A stretch of 39,845 nt of DNA from a virus, in IMG/VR virus record IMGVR_UViG_3300025674_000110, positions 1-39,845 of that record. One strand, written 5' to 3'. The notes beneath the pieces are model-generated. The model saw nothing but the letters and a program-made list of their open reading frames with translations. It made no database searches and was not told the origin of the DNA. This document shows positions 18,617 through 36,303 of the stretch, piece by piece. The translations under genes were made by a program, and so were the position numbers. Numbering within the stretch: the stretch's first letter is position 1; every line of letters starts with the position of its first letter.

Positions 18617-18624
18617 CTTGCCCC
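18614..18624 (+). repeat. TAGCTTGCCCC motif, copy 3
   Basis: The TAG of the motif is the stop codon of the 18266 gene. It differs from the other copies only at the last base. Confidence 0.6.
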
Positions 18625-18647
18625 CTTAACCATATTAGGAGATTATT

Positions 18648-19013: not shown

Positions 19014-19037
19014 TTTTTACACAAAGGAGATTTTATT

Positions 19038-19409
19038 ATGGGTTTAGACCAATGGGCAAGAGCAATTAAAGGCAAAGCGACTGTAGATGATAACGGGTAT
19101 AAAACCTACGAAGAACAGATAACCCTAGCCGAATGGCGTAAGCACCCGAACCTACAAGGGTGGATGGAAAACCTATGGCGTAGTAAAGGAGGTGAAGGTG
19201 ACTTTAATTGTGTGGCAATTGAATTAACTGACACCGAATTACAAACTTTGCGGGTTTATGTAGAAGAGAAAGGTTTACCACCGACACAAGGGTTTTTCTT
19301 TGGACCTAACTCAGATGAGTACTACAAACAGCAGGACTTAGATTTTATTGAGCAAGCATTAGAGTATGCTCAACGTGGTTACACTATTGAATATTACAGT
19401 TGGTGGTAG
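19038..19409 (+). CDS. Conserved phage hypothetical protein (MGLDQWA...SWW)
   Basis: 123 residues from ATG 19038 with AAAGGAGATTT. MGLDQWARA, EWRKHPNLQGWMENLW, FNCVAIELT, TQGFFFG and the ending EYYSWW match a recurrent phage protein. That family is sometimes labelled 'phosphoglycerate kinase' in databases, a label I do not trust. Function unknown. Confidence 0.75.
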   Translation: MGLDQWARAIKGKATVDDNGYKTYEEQITLAEWRKHPNLQGWMENLWRSKGGEGDFNCVAIELTDTELQTLRVYVEEKGLPPTQGFFFGPNSDEYYKQQDLDFIEQALEYAQRGYTIEYYSWW

Positions 19410-19444
19410 TTTTATAGAATTAACTTAACTAGGAGACTTTTATT

Positions 19445-19789
19445 ATGACCGATAATACTACATACAATGGTTGGACTAATCGAGCTACTTGGCTTGTGCC
19501 TTTGTGGATAGACAATGAATACGGTAGTTACAAGCGCAAGCAAGAATTTTTACAAAGATGCTACGGTAGTGATTTAGAGATAACTGCTGCACGTTGTAAA
19601 CTGTACTGTAGACGTTACTTAGACGCTACTAGACATGCTGAGTACGGTTTGTGGCAAGACCTTAGCCGTAACAATACAAGCGACGTAGGACACCGTTGGT
19701 GCGACGTTAACTGGGAAGAGATAGCACAGCATTGGCGTGATGAGCAGGCTGAGATGGTTGAATACCTAAAGGAGCAAGACAATGAGTAA
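19445..19789 (+). CDS. Conserved phage protein, YNGWTNRATW family
   Basis: 114 residues from ATG 19445 with TAGGAGACTTTTATT. The start TYNGWTNRATWLVPLWIDNE is the hallmark of a common phage hypothetical family (DUF7249 from memory). A helical, W-rich C-terminus (VNWEEIAQHWRDEQAEMVEY) follows. Function unknown. It overlaps the next gene by 8 bases. Confidence 0.75.
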   Translation: MTDNTTYNGWTNRATWLVPLWIDNEYGSYKRKQEFLQRCYGSDLEITAARCKLYCRRYLDATRHAEYGLWQDLSRNNTSDVGHRWCDVNWEEIAQHWRDEQAEMVEYLKEQDNE

Positions 19790-20120
19790 TTGGGTAAGAA
19801 TAAGTGAACGAATGCCCACAAAAGAAGACTGTTGCCCGAATGGGTTAGTTATAGTAACCGCTGAAAATGAGGCAAGTTGGTGGACTGTACATTACACACG
19901 TAAGAAGAGTTATAAATGGGAAGCAGCAACACACTGGCTGGATAGCGAATTACCACCGTTGCCCACCAAGCTACGAACTGTTGAAGATGTTGTAAAAGAC
20001 CTATTAAAGTTGTACGAAACCTATGATTACGGTGATTGCTATGGGGCGTTTGACGATTTAATGGAAGATTTGAAACAAATTACAAACCCTAAATATATTA
20101 GGAGACCAAAAAGATGTTAG
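19782..20120 (+). CDS. DUF551-like protein
   Basis: 112 residues. The first 65 have the DUF551 layout: WVRISERMPTKE, then VIVTAEN, a WWTVHYTR strand and ATHWLDSELPPLP. DUF551 proteins are common in phages and of unknown function. The C-terminal 45 residues form an acidic helix pair (TVEDVVKDLLKLYETYDYGD). It overlaps both neighbours by 7-8 bases. Confidence 0.7.
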   Translation: MSNWVRISERMPTKEDCCPNGLVIVTAENEASWWTVHYTRKKSYKWEAATHWLDSELPPLPTKLRTVEDVVKDLLKLYETYDYGDCYGAFDDLMEDLKQITNPKYIRRPKRC

Positions 20121-20329
20121 ACTATGAACTTACGGAAAAGATTACAAAAGCAGTTGATGACCTTGATTGCCCTACCGTACACCTTATGCTTGAACAAGCA
20201 GAACTGACGTATGTACGGCAGGTACTTGATGATGCACACTTTACACTTAGGTATGTGAAGAAACAGTTGCAAGAAGGACAAACCGTTAGAGCCTACAATG
20301 CCCTACAAGGTGTTAGAGCTTTGAGGTAG
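20114..20329 (+). CDS. Hypothetical helical 71-residue protein
   Basis: ATG 20114, with GGAGACC upstream inside the previous gene. All helical: DYELTEKITKAVDDLDCPT, YVRQVLDDAHFTLRYVKKQL, RAYNALQGVRALR. No family is recognised. Confidence 0.6.
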   Translation: MLDYELTEKITKAVDDLDCPTVHLMLEQAELTYVRQVLDDAHFTLRYVKKQLQEGQTVRAYNALQGVRALR

Positions 20330-20476
20330 GGGGTTGAGCCAAGAAACTGAAAGAAGGAAAGAGTGACTGATTGAAAGAAGGAAGGAAGGATGTATCCGCA
20401 CATTACATGAGGACAAATAAAAGCTCCTTTGATCAGAGCTCTTACAAATGAAACAAAACTATTTATGGAGAATAAC

Positions 20477-20857
20477 GTGGGATTACGCCGACGCAAACTT
20501 GATAACCCTGAAACTGACCAACGTGTACTTGAGTACAACGACCGAATTAGAGGCACGTATGGTAGTCTAGAAATTTTACGTATTAGTATGGACCTTACAC
20601 GTGATGAGATTGTTGAAGCCTACACTAGTGTTGCTTATGCCATTGTTGGAGACATGGTAATGAGCATTGCACAATTTGAAGGACGCGATCCTGGTGATGT
20701 AAGCATTGAAACAGAAGTACTTACAGACTTTTTACCAATCCATGGAGGTACACATGGAAACAAGGTTAGGGACTTTTGTTTTGAATGCCCTAATGTGATA
20801 CAAACCTACTACGATTACCTTGAAGCCATTGGCGTTCCTAAACGCTGGCATCTATAA
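20477..20857 (+). CDS. Hypothetical 126-residue protein
   Basis: A GTG at 20477 is chosen because TATGGAG precedes it at 6 bases; ATG 20465 and TTG 20429 are in frame but lack a ribosome-binding site. Helical with an acidic middle (MDLTRDEIVEAYTSVAYAIV) and a C-terminal Cys/His-containing part (FCFECPNVIQ). The upstream gap (20330-20476) is purine-rich with GAAAGAAGGAA repeats. No family is recognised. Confidence 0.6.
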   Translation: MGLRRRKLDNPETDQRVLEYNDRIRGTYGSLEILRISMDLTRDEIVEAYTSVAYAIVGDMVMSIAQFEGRDPGDVSIETEVLTDFLPIHGGTHGNKVRDFCFECPNVIQTYYDYLEAIGVPKRWHL

Positions 20858-20991
20858 AAATAAATTTTATTCTTTTTGCCTTCTTTTGTTATTCGCCCGT
20901 ATTGCTTCCCAATGTGTTCAATGAATACAATAGCTTACGCGGGCAACCTTTTAGTCAACTTTACTCTAACTACATTGTGGAGACTTTTATT

Positions 20992-21174
20992 ATGCCAAAG
21001 GATGCTAGATTACTTTTTCCTACCAACCAGTACATTACCCTTTACGAAGATATCGATAAAGAAGGTAGTATAGACTGGCATAGTTTCTTTAGGGATTATG
21101 ATCCTACTACGCACCGTATGGATATTGTACACGCTGATGCTGTACTGCTCTTTGCTGAGCAGTTTAGTACGTGA
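20992..21174 (+). CDS. Hypothetical 60-residue protein
   Basis: ATG 20992 with GTGGAGACTTTTATT directly upstream, the exact consensus leader of this module; earlier in-frame starts have none. It contains PTNQYITLYEDIDKEG and DAVLLFAEQF. The preceding 134-base gap has an AT hairpin (AAAATAAATTTT) right after the 20857 stop. No family is recognised. Confidence 0.55.
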   Translation: MPKDARLLFPTNQYITLYEDIDKEGSIDWHSFFRDYDPTTHRMDIVHADAVLLFAEQFST

Positions 21175-21177
21175 CCT

Positions 21178-21459
21178 ATGGGAACCTTATACCCCCAGTT
21201 GGGTGGTAGAGGTTGGGCCTACGCACTAGTAGAGCGTTTTACCCCAGAAAACCTATTTGAAGCCAGTATTGCTTTTAGTAAAAGAATATGTGAATGGCAT
21301 GAACACGTTTACCAAAACAATTTTTTGTGGGAAGTACAAGAGTTTAATAAGGCTAAGAAGTACTACCAATACATTACCAATTACGATGAAAGCCTTGTTA
21401 ACAAAGCAATAACTTTAGGATTAGGAAAGTGGAATTTACAAAACAGGAATATACTATGA
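21178..21459 (+). CDS. Hypothetical 93-residue protein
   Basis: ATG 21178, 3 bases after the previous stop. Helical and aromatic (LYPQLGGRGWAYALVERF, FNKAKKYYQYITNYDESLV). The stop overlaps the next start (ATGA). No family is recognised. Confidence 0.6.
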   Translation: MGTLYPQLGGRGWAYALVERFTPENLFEASIAFSKRICEWHEHVYQNNFLWEVQEFNKAKKYYQYITNYDESLVNKAITLGLGKWNLQNRNIL

Positions 21460-21806
21460 GCAACAACACTAAACAAGACCACACTATTTACACCGAAGAT
21501 AACTTAAAAGTTATACAGAATCTCTGGGCGGAAGCCTTATACGTGCAAGACGGCGTGAACAGTACTGCCATTGCAATGGGGATGCACCAATGCGGTAAAA
21601 ACCTAATGAAGATTTACCGTAATACAACTAAAGTGAATACACACAGCATTATGCAATTATGGACTTACCGACTGGCAATGTTAGCCAATTGGGATTGTAT
21701 GGATTGCGGACTTGATTTTGACGAATTGTGGGGTGAAATATGTAACAACTATAACGGAGATATACTTAATTTTAAGCGAGGTATTAAAGACTACGTTTGT
21801 ACTTAG
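21456..21806 (+). CDS. Hypothetical 116-residue protein
   Basis: ATG 21456 is coupled to the previous gene (ATGA), with AGGA upstream. Helical, with CMDCGLDFDELWGEICNN near residues 80-100. Not recognised. Confidence 0.6.
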   Translation: MSNNTKQDHTIYTEDNLKVIQNLWAEALYVQDGVNSTAIAMGMHQCGKNLMKIYRNTTKVNTHSIMQLWTYRLAMLANWDCMDCGLDFDELWGEICNNYNGDILNFKRGIKDYVCT

Positions 21807-21846
21807 CGTAAGGAACACTACTAACCTAAAGGATTACTTAGTTACA

Positions 21847-22224
21847 ATGCGTAACAATAAACAATTGAACCCTCAACAACTTGTTGATTTTATTGAAGTA
21901 TGTGTATCACATACTTTCAAAGAACACACGGCTCACGGAATGCTTGTTTGTATTCAGGAAGCTGTAAGCACTTATTGGCACTATTTATCTTCAATATGTA
22001 TTCATGAAGATGAACGATTACTATCACCAACCCAAAGGAGACACTATCAAATATGCAGTGAAATTTATGAATCGTTTGAACCAGTTATTGCAGACGCATT
22101 TACTAGAGTTCTTGAAAGTAAGCCTAGGACTTACCAGTGTCCTATTTGTGATGACGAAGAACCTAACGAACCTTTAGGTCCTGATGATGCACGTCCAGTA
22201 GACTGGGAAGATAACGATGAGTAA
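21847..22224 (+). CDS. Hypothetical 125-residue protein with C-terminal CPxC
   Basis: ATG 21847 (AAAGGA lies rather far upstream). An N-terminal helix (PQQLVDFIEVCVSHTFKEHT) and a C-terminal YQCPICDDEEPNEPLGPDDA acidic tail. The single CPIC could be half of a metal site. Overlaps the next gene by 8 bases. Not recognised. Confidence 0.55.
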   Translation: MRNNKQLNPQQLVDFIEVCVSHTFKEHTAHGMLVCIQEAVSTYWHYLSSICIHEDERLLSPTQRRHYQICSEIYESFEPVIADAFTRVLESKPRTYQCPICDDEEPNEPLGPDDARPVDWEDNDE

Positions 22225-22426
22225 ATTATGGTTTAAGATTATGTCTGTTACGATTTTTGTTTCATTATTAATGAATATTTTAGTTGACATACCTTATTGG
22301 TGTGGAAAACTAAGTGATGAGTTCAATTGGCACAAGCGACGTGAAGCTACTGTGCTTAGAGTAAGAGAAAACAAAAACAAAATCAGATTATGGTTAAATG
22401 GAAAACTTAGAGAATTAGGAGATTAA
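22217..22426 (+). CDS. Single-TM hypothetical protein with basic tail
   Basis: 69 residues: one N-terminal membrane span (about 5-25, WFKIMSVTIFVSLLMNILV) and a basic cytoplasmic helix (HKRREATVLRVRENKNKIR). It is likely anchored in the inner membrane. The function is unknown. Confidence 0.6.
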   Translation: MSKLWFKIMSVTIFVSLLMNILVDIPYWCGKLSDEFNWHKRREATVLRVRENKNKIRLWLNGKLRELGD

Positions 22427-22430
22427 CTGT

Positions 22431-22823
22431 ATGACAAAACAAACAACCACTATAAGCAAGAAAGTACCTTGTGATGTAGGTTCTTTACGTGTTGCCGAGC
22501 GTGTACATTACCGTGGCAAACATGGAGCACATAAGTTTCATTACAGGTCGGATAACGATGAGCCCATGTACCTGTGGTGTGTTATTAACGAATACGGACA
22601 ACAACAGTTTGTATTTGCTGAGAACCACAAAGGTGCTAAGGAACAAAGCGTAGATAGCCGTTTGTACCCTTATGGTAGTAACGAGCGAGATGAATACTAT
22701 AAGAGCCTAACGGTTTTTAATGTACCTTACATTGTGCGAGGATGGGGACAACACCTGTTTTTGTATGATGAACGTGATGAAAAAAGTTTACAGGTTAATT
22801 TTGAAGAACAAAAAGTATTTTAG
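22431..22823 (+). CDS. Hypothetical 130-residue protein
   Basis: ATG 22431 with TTAGGAGATTAACT upstream. Beta-rich with many aromatic and charged residues (RVHYRGKHGAHKFHYRSDND, MYLWCVINEYGQQQFVFAEN). No motif is recognised. Confidence 0.6.
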   Translation: MTKQTTTISKKVPCDVGSLRVAERVHYRGKHGAHKFHYRSDNDEPMYLWCVINEYGQQQFVFAENHKGAKEQSVDSRLYPYGSNERDEYYKSLTVFNVPYIVRGWGQHLFLYDERDEKSLQVNFEEQKVF

Positions 22824-22836
22824 GAGACTACTAAAA

Positions 22837-23172
22837 ATGGCAAAACAAAGAGCAACCACTAAACAAGTTGTTGAGGTTTTACGTGATAACCCTAGCTACA
22901 ACCGAGCTAAGATTATACACACACTTCAACGGCCTGTTGAACACTGGCAAGTACAAAGTGCAAAGCGGAAGCTAGGCTTGCAAAAAACAAGTAAGCCAGC
23001 AAAACGACGCAAGGGTAGACGTCCCGTTACAAGTACTGTAGTTACCACTAATAACGATGTGCTTACTGCTGCTGAACTAATTATACAGGCTGAGAAGCTG
23101 TGTCAAAATGCCGGTAGTGTTGAACGTGTAAAACGTGCTATCGATGTACTTAGTGAAGTAGGAGAAATTTAG
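22837..23172 (+). CDS. Small basic protein with HTH-like N-terminus
   Basis: 111 residues from ATG 22837 with TTAGGAGACTAC. Residues 5-45 (TTKQVVEVLRDNPSYNRAKI, VQSAKRKLG) look like a helix-turn-helix, then a basic linker (KPAKRRKGRRP). A C-terminal helix pair (DVLTAAELIIQAEKLCQNAG, KRAIDVLSEV) resembles short helical domains in planctomycete regulators. A DNA-binding regulator is possible. Confidence 0.6.
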   Translation: MAKQRATTKQVVEVLRDNPSYNRAKIIHTLQRPVEHWQVQSAKRKLGLQKTSKPAKRRKGRRPVTSTVVTTNNDVLTAAELIIQAEKLCQNAGSVERVKRAIDVLSEVGEI

Positions 23173-23184
23173 TGCAAAACGCTA

Positions 23185-23213
23185 TTGCGTTGAATTGTTG
23201 ACTTACTTACAAT
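23185..23213 (+). promoter_or_regulatory. Promoter of the second winged-helix paralogue
   Basis: TTGCGT (23185-23190), exactly 17 bases, TACAAT (23208-23213). The predicted transcript start is about 37 bases before ATG 23257. TTGCGT also begins the weaker promoter-like sequence before the paralogue at 13101. Confidence 0.55.
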
Positions 23214-23240
23214 ACTGGACGAACCATTTTTAACTTTTAT

Positions 23241-23248
23241 TACAAGGA
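23241..23248 (+). promoter_or_regulatory. Candidate CsrA site overlapping the ribosome-binding site
   Basis: TACAAGGA matches the CsrA/RsmA high-affinity core (UACARGGA) and includes the GGA of the ribosome-binding site of the 23257 gene. The phage carries its own csrA (37205-37408). Confidence 0.4.
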
Positions 23249-23256
23249 GCCTTATT

Positions 23257-23673
23257 ATGGCAAAAGCAACTACTACTACTACCAAGAAGACCGTTACCAA
23301 GAAAGCACCTGCTACTAAGAAGAAGCCTGCTGCTAAAGCAACTACCAAGGTTGCCAATAAGACAACCCCTAAGAAAGCCACCAGCAACAGAGGACCAAGT
23401 GTACGCGAGCGTATTTTGCTTTTTGTTGCTGAAAATGGCGAGAGTAGTGCGAGGCAAATTCAGCTAGGTATTGGCTTGAGCCACGGTTGTAAACCTACCT
23501 GCGACCAGGAAGTTAGTTTTGGGCATTTAACGGTTGAAAGCCACCCAACTGAAAACGGTGGTGAAGGTCCTGCCATGTACAAGATTAGCAAAGAAGGTAA
23601 GAAGAAAGTTACCCAAATTAAAAAGGGTAATGAGTACAACTTACGTGGTGCTAAAGAAGAAGCTAGTAAGTAA
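23257..23673 (+). CDS. Basic-tail winged-helix-like DNA-binding protein (paralogue B)
   Basis: 138 residues. A histone-like tail of about 45 residues rich in K, T, A and P (KKTVTKKAPATKKKPAAKAT) precedes a winged-helix-like domain: RERILLFVAENGESSARQIQ, IGLSHGCKPTCDQE, a wing at ESHPTENGGEGPAMYKISKE and GKKKV. It shares LSHxCxxTC, the G-G-x-x-x-AM wing and the basic tail with the 13101 protein. It has its own promoter and is followed by a structured region. A DNA-binding regulator or nucleoid protein is inferred. Confidence 0.7.
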   Translation: MAKATTTTTKKTVTKKAPATKKKPAAKATTKVANKTTPKKATSNRGPSVRERILLFVAENGESSARQIQLGIGLSHGCKPTCDQEVSFGHLTVESHPTENGGEGPAMYKISKEGKKKVTQIKKGNEYNLRGAKEEASK

Positions 23674-23694
23674 GTTAGGTTTTATGTGCGGTTG

Positions 23695-23903
23695 ACCTGC
23701 ACCTTTTATGTATTACACATGCTCTTGCATATGGCGGTGAATGCAGGGTGTAGGTAAATGAAATTTTATTACCCGTTAATTTGTTGGTCCGTGGAGGGTA
23801 GTAAAGAGTCTCCCATTTGGTAACCTTGAACCTGACTTACCTAGAAGAACAGCATTAGTAGTGTAACGGACCTGTGACCCTGCTATGTTGTTCTTCTTTT
23901 TTA
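23695..23903 (+). ncRNA. Candidate structured RNA / attenuator with pseudoknot
   Basis: The 264-base gap between two genes holds nested complementary segments. P1: 23695-23703 with 23747-23755 (9 pairs, one G-U). P1a inside it: 23726-23730 with 23741-23745. P2: 23786-23792 (GGTCCGT) with 23866-23872 (ACGGACC), 7 perfect pairs. P3: 23793-23796 with 23810-23813. P4: 23819-23823 with 23837-23841. P5: 23843-23855 with 23885-23897, 13 pairs including one G-U, followed by a T-run. The 3' strand of P2 lies in the loop of P5, so P2 and P5 form a pseudoknot or exclude each other. This looks like a structured leader or an sRNA ending in a terminator. It resembles no riboswitch or tRNA I can name. Confidence 0.5.
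23843..23902 (+). terminator. Long-stem intrinsic terminator
   Basis: A 13-bp stem, AGAAGAACAGCAT with ATGTTGTTCTTCT (one G-U), has a 29-base loop and is followed by further T residues to 23902. It ends 35 bases before ATG 23938, so it can end the 23257 transcript or attenuate the downstream genes. Confidence 0.7.
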
Positions 23904-23937
23904 TGTTTATGAATATACACAACCACTAGGTACTACT

Positions 23938-24270
23938 ATGAAGATAGTAAACAAACAACCTGTACACATTAGTGATAACACCAAGTTAGCTAAGTTTATT
24001 AGACGTAAGGCAGGAAAGACCATATTCCGTTGTACGTTTACTAAACGAACCACCGGCGAGCAACGTGTTATGGTTTGCCGACTAGAAGTAGCAAAGAACA
24101 TTAAAGGTGTTGGGCAACCTTTTGATGCAGAAGACCACCAATTACTTACCGTGTGGGATATGCAAAAACAAGCCTATCGTATGATTAACCTACAGGCTGT
24201 TACTGAGTTGAAAATACGCGGTACGGTTTATTCTGGGAGAGTACTTAACCAGCTATTACAAGGAGCATAA
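23938..24270 (+). CDS. Conserved phage SH3-like beta-barrel protein
   Basis: 110 residues. FRCTFTKRTTGEQRVMVCRL, GVGQPFDAEDHQLLTVWDMQ, then KQAYRMINLQAVTELKIRG match a common phage family ('f.F.KRttGe.R.M.crlgv.k...G.G..yd...h.lltV.D..k.ayR.inL..i..l'). Members are annotated as SH3-fold or hypothetical. Function unknown; a nucleic-acid or host-protein contact is possible. It is the first gene after the structured region. Confidence 0.7.
   Translation: MKIVNKQPVHISDNTKLAKFIRRKAGKTIFRCTFTKRTTGEQRVMVCRLEVAKNIKGVGQPFDAEDHQLLTVWDMQKQAYRMINLQAVTELKIRGTVYSGRVLNQLLQGA
24257..24264 (+). promoter_or_regulatory. Candidate CsrA site at the ribosome-binding site of the 24275 gene
   Basis: TACAAGGA, the CsrA core, overlaps the GGAG used by ATG 24275. 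Confidence 0.35.
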
Positions 24271-24274
24271 GAGT

Positions 24275-24475
24275 ATGCAGTACGAAATTAGCAAGAGCGG
24301 CCCACAAGGAAATGCCTTTTTTATTATGGGGCAGACCAGTAGAATTTTACGGGCTATGGGTAAAACCAAAGAAGAAATTGAAACAATCATGGATGATATG
24401 AAAAGCAGTAACTATACCCACCTTTGTGAAGTAGCAGAGCGTGAAAGTTTAGGTATGATTACCTTTGTTGATTAA
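24275..24475 (+). CDS. Conserved phage hypothetical, 66 residues
   Basis: MQYEISKSGPQGNAFFIMGQ, then LRAMGKTKEEIETIMDDMKS and a C-terminal strand. The 'GNAf.iMG.v...L...g...eei......m...dY..ll' pattern occurs in small phage and plasmid proteins. Function unknown. Confidence 0.65.
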   Translation: MQYEISKSGPQGNAFFIMGQTSRILRAMGKTKEEIETIMDDMKSSNYTHLCEVAERESLGMITFVD

Positions 24476-24509
24476 CCCTTTTTTACATTTAACCAATGGG
24501 AACCCCACT

Positions 24510-24740
24510 ATGGCAACTTTAGTAGATGAAAAAATTAGGATACTTACAGAAATCGAAGGGTATGATGATCCTATTGAGCTTTGTGAGGAAGTATTTAATG
24601 ATGGGTGCTGTCCAGGCATTTGTATGAATGAAGATTGTGAGAGCACCTACAGCTACGAACCTGACAGTACCGACGGTTGGTGCGACGAATGCCAAACCAA
24701 CACAGTTAAAAGCCTTATGATACTGCTAGGTGTTATATGA
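24510..24740 (+). CDS. Small zinc-binding phage protein
   Basis: 76 residues from ATG 24510. DGCCPGICMNEDC, then GWCDECQTNTVKSLMILLG: a five-cysteine pattern (CPGIC...C ... CxxC) seen in many environmental-phage proteins, with 'GWCdeCgtntVkS...L.g'. Zinc binding is likely; function unknown. It overlaps the next gene (ATGA). Confidence 0.7.
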   Translation: MATLVDEKIRILTEIEGYDDPIELCEEVFNDGCCPGICMNEDCESTYSYEPDSTDGWCDECQTNTVKSLMILLGVI

Positions 24741-28140: not shown

Positions 28141-28347
28141 TTATTCTTTTGGGTTTCTTTTACATATATTGCAAGGAACTTTTTCTTTAATTCCATTTTT
28201 GTATAGTGTGTAAGTGTATCCAACACCAAAACAATTATTACATTGTTCATACAGTTGTCTAAGTTTTGGTGGTAATTCCTCAATTTTCTTTATGTGATTG
28301 TATCCTTTATGTGGTAAAGGTGTTGTTGTGTTAAAAGGTTGGTTCAT
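28141..28347 (-). CDS. Small zinc-ribbon-like protein
   Basis: 68 residues from ATG 28347, overlapping the SNase stop (ATGA). CNNCFGVGYTYTLYKNG and VPCNICKRN give two CxxC pairs, a short zinc ribbon. Unknown function; nucleic-acid binding is likely. Confidence 0.55.
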   Translation of the reverse strand: MNQPFNTTTPLPHKGYNHIKKIEELPPKLRQLYEQCNNCFGVGYTYTLYKNGIKEKVPCNICKRNPKE

Positions 28348-28703
28348 CTATAGTTACTCCATTCTGCATAACCATCAATAACCATTTGATTATTGATTAG
28401 TACTTCAATGCTTGTGTCTTTTTTCTTAGCACTAATAGTGCAAAGATATCGTCCATACTTACCTTGTTTATCTTTAACTGTTTCTACGTAGAGTTGTTCT
28501 ACATCGTCATCATTAAGAAGATGTTCAAGATATTCTTTACTTTTTAATCCTTCTAATCTTTCTGGTCCTCTTATCTCAGGAGCGTCAATAGCACGTAAAC
28601 GTATCTTTTGTTTTGTAAGTGTATTAAAGCCTAAGTCAATAAGTAGTTCGACTGTGTCACCATCAATAACTCTTACAACTTTTTCTACTCGGTAGGTGTA
28701 CAT
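28344..28703 (-). CDS. Staphylococcal-nuclease-like (SNase/thermonuclease) protein
   Basis: 119 residues. VVRVIDGDTVELLIDLGF (Ca-binding Asp region), KIRLRAIDAPE (catalytic Arg and Asp), RLEGLKSKEYLEHLL (the usual catalytic Glu region) and KYGRYLCTIS (second Arg) follow the SNase family order. These enzymes cut DNA and RNA to 3'-phosphates; phage forms may degrade host DNA. There is no signal peptide, so it acts in the cytoplasm. The start overlaps the 3' end of the DUF1599-like/MazG-like gene. Confidence 0.8.
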   Translation of the reverse strand: MYTYRVEKVVRVIDGDTVELLIDLGFNTLTKQKIRLRAIDAPEIRGPERLEGLKSKEYLEHLLNDDDVEQLYVETVKDKQGKYGRYLCTISAKKKDTSIEVLINNQMVIDGYAEWSNYR

Positions 28704-29731
28704 TGTTGCTCCTCTAGAATTTTGGATACGTTAGGTGGTCTAAAATTAGCAGGTTTAATCCACTTACCATTATGTAAGTACCCACTAGACCATATATCAT
28801 GGCAAATGGGGCATTTAAGTTGTCCAGTAGTTTTTACTCTATTGGCCTCATCATAAGTACAGCATCCTTTGGGGCATCCCTTTTTGGTAAACTTGCGTAA
28901 GTTAGCAGCATCTACGGCCTCCTGCAATGCACCATCTTTAATACCAGCAGCAATAAGGGTTCCCGTGGCTATGACTTTTACATCGGCACAACCATCGGCA
29001 AGTTCTTCCATGTTTGGTTTTCTGTTTTTAGTTGTTTGCACTACTACATCACTAAACTCTATAGGATTGTTACTGTCTGGTCCGTAACAAATATCTAAGG
29101 CTAGTCCTCGTTGTATGGTTTCAAACACTTCTTCCAGTAAAAGATAGGCTCTAGCTAAACGAGTATCAACGTCAGGCACAACAGGACAATCCGGTACAGG
29201 TTGGTTAGCCAATTGCATAAAGGCTCGTACACTGTCGTAATGGCCGGTCGTTCGTTTAGGTGGTGGGCTAACCTTTTGTGCAGTAGTCATAGGGGGTATG
29301 GGTTCAAGTGCGGGTGTGCCACCAGAAGGTTGCTCTTCTACTACTTCTTCTTCATCAAATCTTGTTAAAAACTCTTGTTGGAGTTCTTGCAAATCAGGCT
29401 TGTCAGTTAGACCTTCTTCACATTCCAATACCATTTGGCTTTCTACTAGTAAAAGGTAACGACGGAGGTCTCGTATTTCGGCAAGTATACTGCTATCTTC
29501 GCCTGACCATTCTTGTTCTTCTGCTAACTTAAATAAGTCATAGCTTTGGTAGTCTTGCATAATGTTTTCAATGCGGTCCCACTTGCGGGCAAGCATCATA
29601 AATGCTCCAGTGCCTCCACGCTTTTTCCAGCTACCACGGTAAGTTTTTTCTTTGTAGTTAATGTGGTCTACATCCTCTTGGGCTATAGGACCAATGTAAC
29701 GTAAGTGGTTTAGTTCTTTCGGTAGGTTCAT
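28685..29731 (-). CDS. DUF1599-like (Nmad1-like) plus MazG-like nucleotide pyrophosphohydrolase fusion
   Basis: 348 residues from ATG 29731. N-terminal domain (about 15-115): KEKTYRGSWKKRGGTGAFMM, LARKWDRIENIM, EIRDLRRYLLLVES, resembling the short helical DUF1599 / nucleotide-modification-associated domain 1. After a Pro/Glu linker (130-165), the C-terminal domain (170-340) has ARAYLLLEEVFETIQRGLAL and EELADGCADVKVIATGTLIA, the helical E-E-x-x-E / D-x-x-D pattern of MazG/PRA-PH-type NTP pyrophosphatases. A cysteine cluster (KKGCPKGCC, CPIC) and KWIKPANFRPP end it. It could remove dTTP or a modified-nucleotide precursor. It lies 11 bases downstream of the thymidylate-synthase-family gene. Domain names are from memory. 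Confidence 0.6.
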   Translation of the reverse strand: MNLPKELNHLRYIGPIAQEDVDHINYKEKTYRGSWKKRGGTGAFMMLARKWDRIENIMQDYQSYDLFKLAEEQEWSGEDSSILAEIRDLRRYLLLVESQMVLECEEGLTDKPDLQELQQEFLTRFDEEEVVEEQPSGGTPALEPIPPMTTAQKVSPPPKRTTGHYDSVRAFMQLANQPVPDCPVVPDVDTRLARAYLLLEEVFETIQRGLALDICYGPDSNNPIEFSDVVVQTTKNRKPNMEELADGCADVKVIATGTLIAAGIKDGALQEAVDAANLRKFTKKGCPKGCCTYDEANRVKTTGQLKCPICHDIWSSGYLHNGKWIKPANFRPPNVSKILEEQQCTPTE

Positions 29732-29742
29732 AATAGTTGTTA

Positions 29743-30735
29743 TTAACTCCTTGTAATACGTCGGTCTATCCAATTTACACAAGCTAACCGCCAATCGGCA
29801 GACGGTATGGTTTCACATACTTTGCGAGCTTGTCGTAAGTCACCATTACGGTAATGCCAATAGGCAGTAATCATAGGACTCGCAACTAACCGCAAAAATG
29901 GACTGTCAGCATTCTCAAAATAGTTATTGCAAAAGAAGGAACTGTCCTCCAAGTACAAAGCTAACTCGTTATCAAACGTTTCTCTGTTGTTGTATAAGGG
30001 AATGTGTTCAACCTCCGTGTGATTATAGAAAAAGGTTTGGTGTTCTTTGTAATTTTTACTTTTCCAGAGAGACTCGTAGATATGCAAATCATTAGTAAAA
30101 TGAGTATACGTACCCATAGGCTTATTCAAAGCTAGGGCAATATATTCCTGGAGGAAACTAAAGTGTACCGCATTGGCTCCGAGGCATCCCCATATGGCAT
30201 CATTACTACGGTTACATACAGTCATATTGAGGGTATCGGTACGTTGATTAATGCTAAAGTAAGCATTAGTATTGCAGCAGACATCTTTGCTGGTTTCTAT
30301 TTTTAGTAGGTCGTCTCTTACATTCCACATTTGTAAAACAGCACGTCTACTATTTGGTTCACGTGTTAGGTGGTCAATAATAATTTCAAGTTGGTCACCG
30401 TCTGCTTTACGCCATCTATGTCCGTAAGCACCATTAAAGGTAACACCATTGTCACTGTAGTTTGCCATGTTTCGTACAAACCAATGCAACGGTTTTACAC
30501 TATTGCATCCTGCCAACATCCAGAGGCTTTCGTAAACATGAAAGAACGGGTTTGCATCACGCTCGGCATTAAGCAGTACTCGGTTCTGTGGCTTTACGTA
30601 ATATAGGGTTACTGGTTGATGAGCTTTTAGTACACGTCCATTACGAGTATCGCAGTAATTTATAAAAGCACTATGTTCAAAGTACTCACATACTTTTCTA
30701 AAAGCATCTTCTACGCATATAGCTGTAATTTCCAT
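29743..30735 (-). CDS. Thymidylate synthase family protein (thymidylate synthase or dUMP hydroxymethylase)
   Basis: 330 residues. Family marks: ESLWMLAG (about 69-76), NGAYGHRWRK (101-110), SRRAVLQMWN (129-138), the nucleophile region DVCCNTNAYF with the catalytic Cys aligning to Cys154, and CNRSNDAIWGCLGANAVHFS (174-193). Arg176, Ser177, Asp179 and Asn188 are in place. The Asn aligned with the base-selecting residue suggests dUMP rather than dCMP as substrate. Thymidylate synthases methylate dUMP; phage relatives add a hydroxymethyl group to make 5-hmdUMP. The neighbours favour the latter, but sequence alone cannot decide. It touches the radical SAM stop (1-base overlap). Confidence 0.85.
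   Translation of the reverse strand: MEITAICVEDAFRKVCEYFEHSAFINYCDTRNGRVLKAHQPVTLYYVKPQNRVLLNAERDANPFFHVYESLWMLAGCNSVKPLHWFVRNMANYSDNGVTFNGAYGHRWRKADGDQLEIIIDHLTREPNSRRAVLQMWNVRDDLLKIETSKDVCCNTNAYFSINQRTDTLNMTVCNRSNDAIWGCLGANAVHFSFLQEYIALALNKPMGTYTHFTNDLHIYESLWKSKNYKEHQTFFYNHTEVEHIPLYNNRETFDNELALYLEDSSFFCNNYFENADSPFLRLVASPMITAYWHYRNGDLRQARKVCETIPSADWRLACVNWIDRRITRS
29748..29755 (-). promoter_or_regulatory. Candidate CsrA site before the DUF1599-like/MazG-like gene
   Basis: On the minus strand TACAAGGA followed by GT, a full match to the CsrA core ACARGGAnGU except for the position after GGA. It overlaps the ribosome-binding site region upstream of ATG 29731. Confidence 0.4.
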
Positions 30736-31640
30736 TACTTGTCCTCTTTATTTCTTTTGTCTACTCTTAGTTGGTAGTATCTATGAATAAGATTTTTATT
30801 AAGTGTTTTACCAAATGACTTATCCACATTGCCGGGGTATGCTCCACTGTGGCAATCACACACATTACATAAAGGTAAGGTTCTGTCTTTACGTAAGAGG
30901 TGTTCACGGTAGGTATTAAGTACAGGGTGGTTCCAAATATCTACTAGTGAAGCAGACTTCAAGTTAGACCAAGTAACATCAGCATGGTAGTCTTGGCAAC
31001 AAACCATAGGTTCACCACGCCAGTTAATGTTTAACAGTCTAAAAGGACGTACACACATACGTGGTACTGCCTCACAAGTTTTAGGTATAAACTGTTCAAT
31101 GTTTCCGGCTCTGTTGGTAAGTCTAAAAATACCTGTACCAAACTCTTCAGGTACGCTTTTGTCCAACATACTTATATGATGTTGTCGGTGCTTGCCTTGT
31201 GCATATACTTGGTCACCATTTATTTTTACGTTATCTTGAGCCTCTACTGCTTCTATCCATGGTAAACGTTTCTCGTAGAGTCCAACACTGTAGCAGTTTA
31301 CTAACAGTTGGTTAAGTCCTAAGTTAAACCAATGCAGTATCTCATCAGAGCCTTTAAGGTAATCTCCATTGGTGGCAATCATTTGTGTTGCCGTAGGGAC
31401 TAACTTTTTAGTTGTGGTAATGCAAAATTCAGTCCACTCTTTATCCTTAAATGGTTCGTTGTAAATGTACCACTCTATGCGTCCCTTGTACTTGAGAGCA
31501 GCTAGTTCTTTTATGGCTTTCATTACTAGCTCTTCTTGCATACGTTCATTTGGTCGGCTGTTGTAGGCAACAGGACAAAACTTGCAACTTCGGTTGCATT
31601 GTGCGTTAATTTCTAACGATAAAGTATTAAACAGTTTCAT
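30735..31640 (-). CDS. Radical SAM enzyme with SPASM-like cysteine cluster
   Basis: 301 residues. CNRSCKFC (Cys15, 19, 22) is the CxxxCxxC site for the [4Fe-4S] cluster that cleaves SAM. GRIEWYIYNEPF and TQMIATNGDYL are typical barrel strands. A C-terminal set of cysteines (CEAVPRMCVRPF, GEPMVCCQDYH, CNVCDCHSG) resembles a SPASM auxiliary-cluster region. The 'CQDY....NL...SL.DIWn' wording is typical of SPASM proteins. In hypermodifying phages radical SAM enzymes act on the modified base; that is the leading hypothesis, and peptide or glycan modification is the alternative. Confidence 0.85.
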   Translation of the reverse strand: MKLFNTLSLEINAQCNRSCKFCPVAYNSRPNERMQEELVMKAIKELAALKYKGRIEWYIYNEPFKDKEWTEFCITTTKKLVPTATQMIATNGDYLKGSDEILHWFNLGLNQLLVNCYSVGLYEKRLPWIEAVEAQDNVKINGDQVYAQGKHRQHHISMLDKSVPEEFGTGIFRLTNRAGNIEQFIPKTCEAVPRMCVRPFRLLNINWRGEPMVCCQDYHADVTWSNLKSASLVDIWNHPVLNTYREHLLRKDRTLPLCNVCDCHSGAYPGNVDKSFGKTLNKNLIHRYYQLRVDKRNKEDK

Positions 31641-31648
31641 AACGTCTC

Positions 31649-31677
31649 ATTATAACATATAAGGGTATATCAAACAA
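31649..31677 (-). promoter_or_regulatory. Sigma70-type promoter giving a near-leaderless radical SAM transcript
   Basis: On the minus strand TTGTTT (31677-31672), 17 bases, TATAAT (31654-31649). Transcription would start about 6-7 bases downstream, almost at ATG 31640. No ribosome-binding site fits in between. Confidence 0.6.
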
Positions 31678-31679
31678 GC

Positions 31680-32828
31680 CTATATTGTGTCTTCCTCTTC
31701 TAACCACTTTAGAATACGATCAGCCACATACGTACAGTGACACCTATCACTTACAAACGTATAGGCATTATCCACTGTTTCTACTACGTGACTTTCTTGT
31801 GGGTGTAGTTCGTTAATAACATCTACAACATTATCCCAGTTAAAAGTAAAGCAGCAGTCTTCCGGTATGCGGCAATATTCGTTAGCTAGAGTATCTTCAT
31901 GGACTAGGTTTAACGTGTAGCAAGCCATAGGTTCCCAATGGGTCATATTGGTGTAGCCTTTGGTACTTAGGTCAATACTAAAGAGGGCTTCACCCATATT
32001 CATCATAAGTTGTTCGTAGTCTACATAGCCGTAGTATTCGTGAGGTACATTATTACTAAGGACGCCATCAGGCAGGTCTTCACGTGTAAAGTCACAACAA
32101 AAAGCATCATTAAATACTTGTTGTTTCGCTAAGTTGTGGTACTCCATACCAGCACCAAAAACACGCATCGGTATGCGTATGTCTGGCATATGAGGTAAAA
32201 ACTTATGGTGGTTTTTCCATTTAAGCCATTGGGTAGCTAGTATTCCAAAGGGTTGTCTACTCTTAAACTTACTGTACTTGTCAAACGCATCTATGTCTAA
32301 CGGAAAGTACTCCCACTTTTTAGGTCCAACGCTTGGGTAATCAACAACACTAGGTAAAAAGATATGTTGTGCTGCTAGTGCTGCATCAACGCAGTCGGAC
32401 ACATCTTCAAACCAAGCATTAGTCTTACGCCAATTTGCATCATGAAATATAACCAAGTTAGGTACTTTTAATTCTTTGTAGATACGCATCCAATTAAGAT
32501 GATACTTATTAGCCTTAACTGCTTTTGTTGGATGAGGTCCAGGATGCAGAAAGATAACCAAGTCGTACTTGTTTAAGTAATCGTCAGTACAACTAGCACA
32601 AGTAGTATCAGCATAGGACAAATGAACTCCTGGGAGGATAGTAAATCTGCGTTTAGTGGCTGGAGTAACTGCACCTCCGTGGGTGGCTTCGGCGTATTTG
32701 CCTTGTGGTGTTAAGTGGTAAAGGTGGGGGTCGTGGTCAAGGTTGCGTAAACCTTTTATTAGGTTTTCACAATACGTGTTAATACCACCTACATCGTTAA
32801 TAGGCCAATTGACTATTGCTATTTTCAT
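31680..32828 (-). CDS. GT-B glycosyltransferase (family 4-like)
   Basis: 382 residues. MKIAIVNWPINDVGGINTYC is a classic GT4 N-terminus with a donor/acceptor loop GGI.TY. A second Rossmann-like half begins near 200 (GILATQWLKWKNHHKFLPHM) with MRVFGAGMEY. STKGYTNMTHWEPMACYTL resembles the 'E.G...T.lEAmacG' region of donor binding. Such enzymes move a sugar from a nucleotide-sugar. Within this cassette it could glycosylate a modified base in phage DNA; a surface glycan target is the alternative. Confidence 0.75.
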   Translation of the reverse strand: MKIAIVNWPINDVGGINTYCENLIKGLRNLDHDPHLYHLTPQGKYAEATHGGAVTPATKRRFTILPGVHLSYADTTCASCTDDYLNKYDLVIFLHPGPHPTKAVKANKYHLNWMRIYKELKVPNLVIFHDANWRKTNAWFEDVSDCVDAALAAQHIFLPSVVDYPSVGPKKWEYFPLDIDAFDKYSKFKSRQPFGILATQWLKWKNHHKFLPHMPDIRIPMRVFGAGMEYHNLAKQQVFNDAFCCDFTREDLPDGVLSNNVPHEYYGYVDYEQLMMNMGEALFSIDLSTKGYTNMTHWEPMACYTLNLVHEDTLANEYCRIPEDCCFTFNWDNVVDVINELHPQESHVVETVDNAYTFVSDRCHCTYVADRILKWLEEEDTI

Positions 32829-32841
32829 TTGTTTTGGTTCC

Positions 32842-33750
32842 TTAAATGTTCGCGTACTTATACTTACGTTTCATTTTGCCAGCACTTAAACGTCCAGCAC
32901 CAATATCTAATGCCCGCATATATTTGTCAAATTCACAAAGGCTGTGTTCTATTTCACGCATTTCACAAGTAGGGTAACGATCTCCTAGTTTTTTGTTGGT
33001 GTAGTTAAGTAGCTTTGCACTTTTCTCTTGGTACTCTTTATTACTTAGTCTGGTTTTAATTGGTCTTCCAAGTAGCCGGTTTAAGCCACGTTTAGCTCCC
33101 GGTCCAGGATTAGACCAAGTATTAACATCTGTACTGTTGCTAAGTACGTAAGTGTAACGGAAGTCACAAGTAATTTCGTAGGCCATAAAACCACTACCTC
33201 CAAAACCTTGGTAGTTGTCTCTAAACACTTTCCAACCATTGCGTAAGGTAGTGCAAGCCATGAGTTCTTCAAAGATACTTTCACGATCCTCCCATATAGG
33301 TTGTATGTAATCTTCACAGACACGTTCTATCTTTGGTTTACGGCTACCACTAGGACTAATGGTAAAAGCTCCAGTAAACACTTTTTCTCCTGTGCTGTTG
33401 TGTTCATGCAGTAGGTCTATAGCTTTGTTGGTGTCCCACTCAACAAGCAAGTTATGTTTGTTAAACAGTACTCCGGTTGGTATCCAGTTAAACCATCGGA
33501 ATGCTGCAACGGCAAACACAACTTGGGGGGTGTTGTCAAGTGGGTCACGAATGTTAGCCTTTACCCAACGAGTTACTTTATCATTCTCACGGTAAGGATT
33601 AGTAAAAAAGTACGTTTGTAATATGGTATCGTTAGTCCAAGGTGGTTCTAACTTTTGTACCTCTTTACGAATAAATATATCGTGACGTTCACGTACCCAA
33701 TAAACAAACTTATCAGGTAGTTCTAAAGTTTCTACTTCGTGGGGTAACAT
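32842..33750 (-). CDS. Thymine-hypermodification protein (5-hmdU DNA kinase helical domain / aGPT-PPlase-like)
   Basis: 302 residues. VYWVRERHDIFIRKEVQKLE, PPWTNDTILQTYFFTNPYRE then NDKVTRWV (about 17-67) match the 'Yw..ERe.I...r..g...PwT.D.Il..yrF.N..Re.D.vtrwi' opening of this family. GGSGFMAYEITCDFRYT, SNPGPGAKRGLNRLLGRP and MREIEHSLCEFDKYMRAL (about 262-279) match its later marks ('GPGa.rGl', 'veh.LCEfdKY'). Characterised relatives in phages such as ViI and M6 act on 5-hydroxymethyl-dU in DNA, phosphorylating it or replacing the pyrophosphate with an amino acid. This is the key evidence for hypermodified thymidine here. Which of the two activities applies is not decidable from sequence alone. 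Confidence 0.75.
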   Translation of the reverse strand: MLPHEVETLELPDKFVYWVRERHDIFIRKEVQKLEPPWTNDTILQTYFFTNPYRENDKVTRWVKANIRDPLDNTPQVVFAVAAFRWFNWIPTGVLFNKHNLLVEWDTNKAIDLLHEHNSTGEKVFTGAFTISPSGSRKPKIERVCEDYIQPIWEDRESIFEELMACTTLRNGWKVFRDNYQGFGGSGFMAYEITCDFRYTYVLSNSTDVNTWSNPGPGAKRGLNRLLGRPIKTRLSNKEYQEKSAKLLNYTNKKLGDRYPTCEMREIEHSLCEFDKYMRALDIGAGRLSAGKMKRKYKYANI

Positions 33751-33772: not shown

Positions 33773-34015
33773 TCATTGGTCCATAGTATTGATAACAGCA
33801 TCACGACTTTCGCTCTCCGAATAACCTGCTGAACGAAGTATGTCGTAGATCAAAACATCTTCTTGAACTTTAGAATCTGCACTTTTGTATTCGTTAGAGT
33901 CATAAAAACTGGTAGCTCCCGAACCACTACTACTACTAGGTGTGTAGCTTGAGTTTGAATCGCAACCAATTAAACAAATAACAACTGAAACTAATAAGAT
34001 ACTTTGCTTGATCAT
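33773..34015 (-). CDS. Small lipoprotein
   Basis: 80 residues from ATG 34015 with AAGGAGAATAG upstream. MIKQSILLVSVVICLIGC gives a lipobox (LIGC, Cys18), then a Ser/Gly-rich linker and a helical C-terminus (DVLIYDILRSAGYSESESRD). A lipid-anchored envelope protein expressed with replication genes is typical of superinfection-exclusion factors; that role is inferred. Confidence 0.65.
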   Translation of the reverse strand: MIKQSILLVSVVICLIGCDSNSSYTPSSSSGSGATSFYDSNEYKSADSKVQEDVLIYDILRSAGYSESESRDAVINTMDQ

Positions 34016-34019
34016 TAAA

Positions 34020-34280
34020 CTATTCTCCTTGAAATTGGGGATTATCAGTAACATTCACTGGACGGTCAATCCAATCAGACAGGTTCATAATAACAGTGGA
34101 AATCTCTTCGTAACTATTAGTTACAGTATAAATTCCCTTACCTGTTTTTATGTTTGTTGCATTTTTGTAAGTTGGGTGTTGTTCTACCCACTCTATCTTT
34201 TCCGTGTTTATTATTCTTTTACTTTTAGTAGGGTGTGTTTCAACCTCTATAAATTTGTGGTTGTTAGATATCCAAATCAT
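34020..34280 (-). CDS. Small beta-rich protein, FlbD/LytTR-like style
   Basis: 86 residues from ATG 34280 (TTGGAG at 8 bases), overlapping the polymerase 3' end by 17 bases. RIINTEKIEWVEQHPTYKNA, TNIKTGKGIYTVTNSYEEIS: the 'in...I..V.......I...G....V..SyeEi...I' pattern recurs in FlbD-like and small phage proteins. Function unknown. Confidence 0.55.
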   Translation of the reverse strand: MIWISNNHKFIEVETHPTKSKRIINTEKIEWVEQHPTYKNATNIKTGKGIYTVTNSYEEISTVIMNLSDWIDRPVNVTDNPQFQGE

Positions 34281-36303
34281 AACCAGTACTCCAATCATGT
34301 GGGTGGTAAGTCCAGCCAGTAGGCAACGGTAAGTTAAAGTCGTCTCCAGAGAGTTCCATTAACCTTTTAATTTCTTTAATTATTTCTAGGTTACCTAAGC
34401 CTTCTTCTGGGTGGGTAGGTGTCCAACTGCTTGCCCGCTTTGCAGGAAAGTCAAACACAAGCTCATCGTGTATTTGCATAATTACGTAGTATCCGGGGTA
34501 GTCACGTAGGAAGTCAAAACAACGTATCATGGCACGTGACATAGCCCACATAGCACTACCTTGTATTACGTAGTTAAGTGGAACAGTTGGCTTTATTTTA
34601 CCGAAGTCATTTTTAGGGCATTCCAAGGGGTAACCAGTTTTGAACCCCTTGTTAGTAAACGTGTATACGTGTCCATGGTCCTCGGCATGTTGTATACTGG
34701 TTGCATTAAGCTCTGTAATCTTTTTGAAGCGTTCTTTAATTTTGGCTTGAGCTCCCTTTACATGGTAAGCCATATCAGCCGTACCGCTTTCCTCCATGGC
34801 TCCGTATTGCACAGCAAAGTTACCGTTTTTAGTCCACTGATACCAAGTACTTGCATACTCATTCTTAAAGTTCTTACCATGCTTGGCAAATTTTTCAGGG
34901 TGTAGTACATCGCATACAAGTAGGTGGTAGCTACCGTAGTAGGGAGGGTCTTCGGGTCGTAAAAACAGATTAATCATCTCCGACTCGCCTGACTTAAATG
35001 CAGGCAATCGGAGTTCTATATTGTTGTAGTCGCCCGACCACCATTCACGTCCTGGTCTTGGGCCAAAACAGTACCGGAGGTTAAAGCCTTCCTTTTTACT
35101 TATGTTTTGCTCATTAGGATTATTGCTAGACATCCTAAGAGTATCTGTGCCGGTAATGTTTAGGTTAGGATGCAGCACAAACCATTCATTCTCTTCATCT
35201 GGTAAAGTAGGGTCGTAGCAGGTAGCTCGGTCGTCAACTAAAGCAACCTTCTTGTAACCATCCATATAGCCTATGGCTGTTCCTCGTTTGCGGGCATCAC
35301 GCAGGTTTTTAACAAAATGGTATTCACTTTTATTGCGAGGTAACGTGGCTTCCCACTGTTCTAGGCTTATCTTGTCTATACTTGCTTCGTTAGTCTTTTT
35401 GCTACGCTTTATAACAGGTAGGTTAAAGTAGTCGAATATGGTACTTCGTAAGGCTTTACTTGTGCCTCCTTTGGGCATTTTATCAAGACGTCCATCACTT
35501 AATTTAAGGCATATGGTTTCAGCCTTGTCGCGTTCTACCGTGTAGGTTTTGTAGAGTTCATTTAACCTGTGCATGGACATACTTATGCCTTGTTGTTCCA
35601 TTACATAAGTAATTTCAAGTAGCTTTAGTCGTTCACGGTAAAGCTCTTCTTGTTGGCGTTCCTGTATTATTTCTAATTGTTTTTTGAACAATGGCAACGT
35701 AATAGCACTATCGCCGTTACCATATATGGGTAGTACGGTTCGGTAGGGATGGTCTTCGGGGTAACCTTCTTCATCAGCTAGGGCAGCAGGTAGCCACATA
35801 TCTAGCTTCCATTTTTTATCACCCTTTACACTAGGTAAAGTTGGGTCACCCTCTTTAGCTAAACGCCAATTAGGATACTTTTTGCGTGCTAGTCTACGGG
35901 CCTCGTTAACAATACTGTTAAGTTGTTCTTCGTATTGTTTAATGTCAATACCTAAGTACATTAACGCCATGCTTGCAAGATCATGAGGTTCTTTACTTGC
36001 AATAAGGTGACCAGCTATAAGAGTGTCTTCTGTTTTTTGCCAATCCCAACGGTCAAACAAATCTATGCTTTCTAGGGCAGAAACATCAAACTTGCTGTTT
36101 TGTATAACTATTTTATCTTGTTGTTCTAATACAGAATGTATCTCGTCAAGGTCTTCTGGAGGAATTATTGGTTGGCGTGTTAATGGGTCTACTCGCCATT
36201 GCCAATATGTGACTTCGTGTTGCTCGTTACAGATACTAACGAAAAATGGTTTGCAACCGTGTTTGAAGTCGATTCCAGTAGTTTCGGTATCTAGTGAAAT
36301 CAT
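34264..36303 (-). CDS. polA: DNA polymerase I family A with 3'-5' exonuclease domain
   Basis: 679 residues. Exonuclease: MISLDTETTGID (Asp5, Glu7), KIVIQNSKFDVSALE and DTLIAGHLIASKEPHDLASM. Polymerase: motif A WWSGDYNNIELRLPAFKSGE, motif B/O-helix WTKNGNFAVQYGAMEESG, motif C YYVIMQIHDELVFDFP. By alignment the residue equivalent to E. coli Phe762 is Phe (in NGNF). It is the replicative polymerase of the phage, without a 5'-nuclease domain, as usual for phage forms. No SD is seen before ATG 36303, but a strong hairpin lies in that gap. Confidence 0.93.
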   Translation of the reverse strand: MISLDTETTGIDFKHGCKPFFVSICNEQHEVTYWQWRVDPLTRQPIIPPEDLDEIHSVLEQQDKIVIQNSKFDVSALESIDLFDRWDWQKTEDTLIAGHLIASKEPHDLASMALMYLGIDIKQYEEQLNSIVNEARRLARKKYPNWRLAKEGDPTLPSVKGDKKWKLDMWLPAALADEEGYPEDHPYRTVLPIYGNGDSAITLPLFKKQLEIIQERQQEELYRERLKLLEITYVMEQQGISMSMHRLNELYKTYTVERDKAETICLKLSDGRLDKMPKGGTSKALRSTIFDYFNLPVIKRSKKTNEASIDKISLEQWEATLPRNKSEYHFVKNLRDARKRGTAIGYMDGYKKVALVDDRATCYDPTLPDEENEWFVLHPNLNITGTDTLRMSSNNPNEQNISKKEGFNLRYCFGPRPGREWWSGDYNNIELRLPAFKSGESEMINLFLRPEDPPYYGSYHLLVCDVLHPEKFAKHGKNFKNEYASTWYQWTKNGNFAVQYGAMEESGTADMAYHVKGAQAKIKERFKKITELNATSIQHAEDHGHVYTFTNKGFKTGYPLECPKNDFGKIKPTVPLNYVIQGSAMWAMSRAMIRCFDFLRDYPGYYVIMQIHDELVFDFPAKRASSWTPTHPEEGLGNLEIIKEIKRLMELSGDDFNLPLPTGWTYHPHDWSTGYDLDI

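Follow-up and report, generated by a model that had tools for sequence, protein, structure and literature searches.

Known DNA modifications of phages and of kinetoplastids offer close comparisons for the locus described here. The amino-acid pathway of Pseudomonas phage M6 and Salmonella phage ViI starts from 5-hydroxymethyl-deoxyuridine (5-hmdU). M6 encodes a thymidylate-synthase (TS)-family 5-hmdUMP synthase and an HMUDK_hel protein close to its DNA polymerase (gp55, gp58 and gp62), together with a P-loop kinase, ADDT, a pyridoxal-phosphate (PLP) enzyme, a radical S-adenosylmethionine (SAM) enzyme (gp53) and Nmad5; ViI also has the kinase. Phage T4 modifies hydroxymethylcytosine, and no HMUDK_hel or radical SAM enzyme is known to us as a partner of its DNA alpha-glucosyltransferase (AGT). 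In kinetoplastids, base J arises when JBP oxidises T within DNA. TAGT is likely to have a DNA-glucosylating role in T6-like phages (PMC13390438), and pelagiphages carry TS, aG/PT-PPlase1 and a putative glucosyltransferase together near the DNA polymerase, among auxiliary genes (PMC9599517). The association with a glycosyltransferase (GT) has therefore already been seen in part; the passages found from that paper propose no exchange of GT and kinase, and the term 'radical SAM' is absent from its text. Here we analyse a linear 39,845-base fragment from an uncultured virus of bacteria, IMG/VR record IMGVR_UViG_3300025674_000110 (the window, meaning the whole stretch), in which five adjacent genes probably encode a phage DNA-base glycosylation pathway acting on 5-hmdU, with the attached sugar then altered by a radical SAM enzyme.

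The window shares the TS-family enzyme and HMUDK_hel with M6 and ViI, and, as in M6, these lie close to a DNA polymerase. It differs in having a GT and a radical SAM enzyme resembling BtrN (2-deoxy-scyllo-inosamine dehydrogenase), whereas M6 has the kinase, ADDT, PLP enzyme, Nmad5 and an unrelated radical SAM enzyme. As far as this record shows, the window uses the same precursor as M6 and ViI without being a member of the amino-acid pathway. TET–TAGT systems for phage DNA glycosylation use TET, whereas the window probably relies on TS for the hydroxymethyl group and encodes a GT of the GT-B fold rather than TAGT (PF20691); TAGT itself adjoins HMUDK_hel in loci related to the window. The core product that we predict, glycosyl-5-hmdU, belongs to the same class of nucleoside as base J, but here the hydroxymethyl group would be introduced on the nucleotide, and the sugar would probably be processed further. 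There is good support, from GT linkage, partner exchange and folds, for a 5-hmdU-derived, probably glycosylated base produced by a new combination of genes, in agreement with a preliminary description of this DNA, which had suggested that the final base could be novel and perhaps glycosylated.

Partners of HMUDK_hel across virus contigs

We scanned virus contigs three times from separate seeds: HMUDK_hel (69 loci), an alignment of the radical SAM enzyme (80 loci) and an alignment of the window-type GT (63 loci). The loci come from contigs of uncultured viruses, many fragmentary and some near-duplicate, and partners can be missed by the 4-kb neighbourhood rule and home-made hidden Markov models (HMMs) that were used to call them. 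Viral scans with the single GT, TS or MazG proteins as queries found nothing, whereas the alignment-based scans did find loci.

In M6 and in Pseudanabaena phage Pam3, the P-loop 5-hmdU kinase directly adjoins HMUDK_hel. Many contigs have TAGT or a window-like GT-B enzyme in that position instead. After removal of near-duplicates and addition of other loci, 100 distinct HMUDK_hel proteins were accompanied by the kinase only (20), a GT only (65), both (1) or neither (14), an exclusion with a Fisher p of 4.5e-11; the HMUDK_hel-seeded loci alone gave 17, 28, 0 and 12, respectively (p 5e-7). On the HMUDK_hel tree, the kinase/GT state requires at least 10 changes, against a shuffled mean of 18, and the TAGT/GT-B state at least 11, which indicates that the partners have been exchanged repeatedly. 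The window-type GT loci (41 distinct at 90% identity) contained TS and/or HMUDK_hel in 62 of 63 cases and the kinase in none. Their usual gene order is HMUDK_hel-GT-TS-small genes-polA, and the window has the same neighbourhood except that polA is on the opposite side.

The radical SAM enzyme is also linked to GTs. A GT, most commonly TAGT, lay within 1 kb in 68 of the 80 radical SAM loci (54 of 62 without near-duplicates); TS was present in 56, HMUDK_hel in 48, and the kinase and ADDT in one each. Tet_JBP occurred in eight (L075, L077, L086, L090, L092, L097, L107 and L146), all of which lacked TS and HMUDK_hel yet had TAGT or another GT beside the BtrN-like enzyme (p 3.6e-4); these loci are TET-based counterparts in which a sugar may be processed in a similar way. 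Both kinds occur within the radical SAM subfamily to which the window's enzyme belongs (the window, L073, L074, L075, L076 and L078), L075 being TET-based. Because the radical SAM enzyme follows the GT across TS- and TET-based hydroxymethyl routes, the substrate shared by these systems is more likely to be the sugar than anything specific to how the base is made.

These results suggest that the cassette is one variant of a module that is widespread and has a GT in place of the 5-hmdU kinase. The preliminary description had regarded the combination as new; a new combination is indeed supported, but it is not unique to the window. One further locus, L002, repeats the set as HMUDK_hel-GT-(one gene)-radical SAM-TS-HD-Nmad1. 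The possibility that five unrelated genes came together by chance was rejected, since the gene set recurs in independent, unrelated contigs. No close nucleotide relatives of the window were found among phage records.

Enzymes of the cassette

The GT matched Pfam Glyco_transf_4 (PF13439) at E 6.6e-5 and 23.4 bits, under the curated cut-off of 28.5. An AlphaFold model (predicted local distance difference test, pLDDT, 75) has a GT-B fold, so the GT4-type GT-B assignment made beforehand is weak in Pfam and clear from structure. VIA-align placed T4 AGT in all five top positions, with Z scores of 26.1-26.5 over approximately 330 residues, and the matched entries include complexes with DNA containing hydroxymethyluracil; the next-ranked fold scored 24.6, and a fold missing from these lists was not counted as evidence against that fold. 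The invariant H129-D130 of the GT aligns with H114-D115 of AGT. We propose that this protein is a 5-hmdU DNA glycosyltransferase. No counterpart was found in cultured phages. Two longer cassettes (L007:4270-8560 and L063:9362-13975) contain both a GT-B enzyme and TAGT, and in one or the other an APH-type kinase and an NTP-transferase are present, which would fit synthesis of a special nucleotide-sugar.

The HMUDK_hel protein scored 166 bits against PF18723 (curated cut-off 25; Table 1), bearing out its earlier assignment, and reached only E 0.08 with the ADDT profile. It has no sequence relative in the PDB. Its AlphaFold model (pLDDT 93.9) is a DNA-glycosylase-like helical fold that best matches the phage PaMx11 5-PmdU glycinyltransferase (8z2n, Z 12.2) and, among other proteins, the helix-hairpin-helix DNA glycosylases MjOgg (3knt, Z 11.4) and Mag1 (Z 9.6) and queuine salvage enzymes. 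Because helical proteins can reach a Z score of about 13 from helix arrangement alone, according to a caution from the alignment tool, kinship with DNA glycosylases is likely rather than proven. We propose that HMUDK_hel is a subunit that binds 5-hmdU in DNA or presents it to a partner transferase. The label aG/PT-PPlase1 is attached to Pam3 gene 50, which matches HMUDK_hel, and is apparently an older name for it. A search of cellular genomes returned a single contig from a metagenome-assembled genome (MAG), and no host was therefore identified; this contig, assigned to a Candidatus Fermentibacteria MAG and perhaps viral, carries a kinase-HMUDK_hel pair (L154:2696-4139). Two cassettes beside polA (L006:7932-10697 and L015:6689-10175) have two HMUDK_hel genes each, the second with an N-terminal extension, and no kinase or GT by the models used.

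The radical SAM protein matched the Pfam radical SAM domain (E 4.6e-5) in addition to SPASM. Its nearest solved structure is BtrN, to which the profile E value is 1.1e-27. C15, C19 and C22 (CX3CX2C) and C196, C214, C215, C258 and C261 are invariant among 86 relatives, and C196, C214, C258 and C261 form a set for one auxiliary cluster with BtrN-like spacing. The alignment sets C169 of BtrN opposite C196; we take the BtrN cluster ligands to be C169, C187, C232 and C235. BtrN oxidises a cyclitol alcohol, acting on the free cyclitol in antibiotic synthesis, whereas the window enzyme is encoded in a DNA-modification operon. By analogy, we propose that it may oxidise or epimerise the attached sugar. 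The preliminary description had counted this enzyme as a type that accompanies 5-hmdU synthesis in phages: the SPASM assignment stands, but the protein is BtrN-like and GT-linked, not of the M6 gp53 type that is seen with ADDT and the kinase. Cultured phages yielded only distant matches, in Campylobacter phages and one fecal contig, some annotated as 'BtrN protein'.

The TS-family enzyme is approximately 41% identical to M6 gp58. Alignment with the M6, Pam3 and ViI proteins showed that it keeps the catalytic CN motif and has Asn in the column in which cytidine monophosphate (CMP) 5-hydroxymethylase has Asp. Asn in place of the CMP/dCMP-type Asp fits deoxyuridine monophosphate (dUMP) as the substrate, and the sequence makes a dUMP 5-hydroxymethylase probable. 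The last gene had been described as a fusion of DUF1599-like and MazG-like parts. The MazG-like part holds (residues 171-363; phrog_671, with Pfam PRA-PH at only E 0.18), but the DUF1599 profile (PF07659) gave no match at E<=1. Residues 24-121 instead match Pam3 gene 54 with 41% identity, and a profile built from M6 gp61 (DUF3310-like) did not detect the gene. A role as a nucleotide-pool enzyme is possible.

Layout and surroundings

The five open reading frames (ORFs) are where the preliminary description placed them, all on one strand, and their HMUDK_hel, GT-B, radical SAM/SPASM, TS and MazG families were confirmed (Table 1). They are listed in 5' to 3' order, and their spacing is operon-like, with gaps of 13 and 39 bp followed by overlaps of 1 and 52 bp. 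Read from the sequence, the more probable start of the last gene is ATG 29731, not TTG 29794, in which case the 52-bp overlap with the TS gene disappears. The polA gene, a conserved neighbour present in most cassette loci, is directly upstream, with two small ORFs intervening.

Table 1. Genes of the cassette and the neighbouring polymerase in the window.
Feature	Coordinates	Strand	Basis
HMUDK_hel protein, 302 aa	32842..33750	-	PF18723, E 1.3e-48
GT-B glycosyltransferase, 382 aa, T4-AGT-like fold	31680..32828	-	structure model; weak Glyco_transf_4
BtrN-like twitch/SPASM radical SAM enzyme, 301 aa	30735..31640	-	SPASM E 4e-9; BtrN E 1.6e-21
TS-family enzyme, 330 aa	29743..30735	-	PF00303 E 1.1e-20; phrog_5131 1.5e-92
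Nucleotide-modification-associated N-terminal domain + MazG-like fusion	28685..29794	-	phrog_671 5.6e-18; Pam3 gene 54
Family A DNA polymerase (polA)	34264..36303	-	PF00476 E 1.5e-32

An HMM scan of all window ORFs found no ADDT, PLP enzyme, M6-type radical SAM enzyme or Nmad5, and the P-loop kinase domain PF18748 had no match in the record, including adjacent to HMUDK_hel; these negatives, which agree with the earlier statement that no P-loop DNA kinase or separate PLP decarboxylase is visible in the window, are provisional because the record is a linear fragment and may be incomplete. The window is clearly from a tailed phage, with genes for a portal, terminase large subunit, primase, family A DNA polymerase, Sak4-like protein and exonuclease. 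Between polA and HMUDK_hel, a small protein (33773-34054) bears a lipoprotein-like signal (SVVICLIGC), and a staphylococcal-nuclease-like protein (PF00565, E 2.2e-7) is encoded immediately after the cassette (28344-28703). Close to 20 short ORFs (90-170 aa) run along the plus strand at positions 17243-24740, against the direction of the portal, terminase and replication genes. Two plus-strand ORFs are preceded by an identical 16-base start-site context, GGAGACTTTTATTATG, at 19432-19447 and 20979-20994; with up to 3 mismatches allowed, five such sites were observed against 0.58 expected.

A proposed pathway and its alternatives

Gene content, families, folds, partner exchange and genomic linkage were computed, and we infer every reaction in the following scheme. 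By homology, the TS-family enzyme would turn dUMP into 5-hydroxymethyl-dUMP, which host or phage kinases would convert to the triphosphate for incorporation by the adjacent polymerase, while the MazG fusion may remove deoxynucleoside triphosphates that compete or are noncanonical. HMUDK_hel would then bind and evert 5-hmdU in DNA and present it to the GT-B enzyme, as it would to the P-loop kinase in relatives, and the GT would move a sugar from a nucleotide-sugar donor onto the hydroxymethyl group, so that a nucleoside resembling base J results. In an optional last step, the BtrN-like enzyme would abstract a hydrogen from a sugar carbon, so that a hydroxyl is oxidised to a ketone, as the BtrN analogy suggests, or the carbon is epimerised, leaving an unusual sugar on the base. 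We place this step on the sugar mainly because the radical SAM enzyme is linked to GTs across two unrelated hydroxylation routes; we know of no example of radical SAM chemistry on DNA sugars. The broader proposal, that HMUDK_hel is a general 5-hmdU-presenting subunit that swaps kinase and GT partners and that the sugar of glycosyl-5-hmdU is oxidised or epimerised on DNA by the radical SAM enzyme, is a tentative one, for which we see nearly as much chance as not.

Glycosylated 5-hmdU might be made as proposed while the radical SAM enzyme acts elsewhere, for example on the base, at its ring or 5-methylene, or on the free nucleotide-sugar before transfer. SPASM/twitch enzymes have varied substrates, and linkage to a GT fits action on a free sugar donor as well; but that linkage persists across TS- and TET-based loci, which favours the sugar, and BtrN is established as oxidising a cyclitol alcohol, so we regard a different substrate as unlikely. 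We consider it very improbable that the target of the GT and radical SAM enzyme is something other than DNA, for example a small molecule, a virion protein or a glycan of the host surface, and that their position near a 5-hmdU cassette is incidental. Synthesis of surface glycans is a common function of GT4 enzymes, and the GT has generic families as its best Pfam matches, but its family occurs almost exclusively beside TS or HMUDK_hel, its model best matches a DNA glucosyltransferase, and a GT has repeatedly replaced the kinase beside HMUDK_hel.

Amino-acid hypermodification of the M6/ViI type would require a kinase encoded elsewhere, with ADDT adding the amino acid, the radical SAM enzyme rearranging it and the GT providing a side activity. 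HMUDK_hel and TS are common to the window and M6, and one contig (L078:4133-11000) joins ADDT, the P-loop kinase, HMUDK_hel, TAGT, a radical SAM enzyme of the window's own subfamily, TS and HD. For this record, such a pathway was rejected, as the window has no kinase, ADDT, PLP enzyme or gp53-type radical SAM enzyme. Kinase or ADDT is present in just one of the 80 radical SAM loci, the kinase is absent from all 63 GT loci, and the radical SAM enzyme groups with BtrN, which together make this explanation quite improbable. Since L078 holds the kinase and ADDT as well as TAGT and the radical SAM enzyme, both routes can coexist, and its product is possibly a two-branch thymine modification or a base combining an amino acid and a sugar.

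Several observations weigh against the glycosylation pathway that we prefer. L078 is one of them, and the fragmentary record is another, as a kinase could lie beyond its ends. A strict independent-pairs test of the kinase/GT exclusion on well-supported branches had too few pairs for significance, and 14 of the 100 HMUDK_hel proteins had neither partner by the models used. The fold of HMUDK_hel is shared with a transferase, and the protein could itself be catalytic. Sequence profiles did not connect the GT with AGT (hhalign probability 11.8), with 15% identity in the alignment and no significant profile match; the GT model is of middling quality, and its margin over other GT-B folds, PimA for example, is only about 2 Z.

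Lee et al. 2022 reportedly discusses combinatorial hypermodification genes in viromes and may mention part of these findings. In the literature searched, we found neither the kinase/GT exchange nor the pairing of a GT with a radical SAM enzyme in thymidine hypermodification, and a mention in Lee 2018, Lee 2022 or Iyer 2013 is possible. The final DNA base is most likely one that has so far had no chemical identification. If the glycosylation pathway is correct, base-J-like glycosylated thymine analogues would be present in many uncultured phages, some of them bearing sugars that radical chemistry has changed further, and HMUDK_hel, so far named as part of a 5-hmdU kinase, would be a protein that hands 5-hmdU to whichever transferase lies beside it. 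DNA with such bases should be protected from restriction and CRISPR nucleases, and the cassettes may provide new enzymes for writing sugars into DNA.

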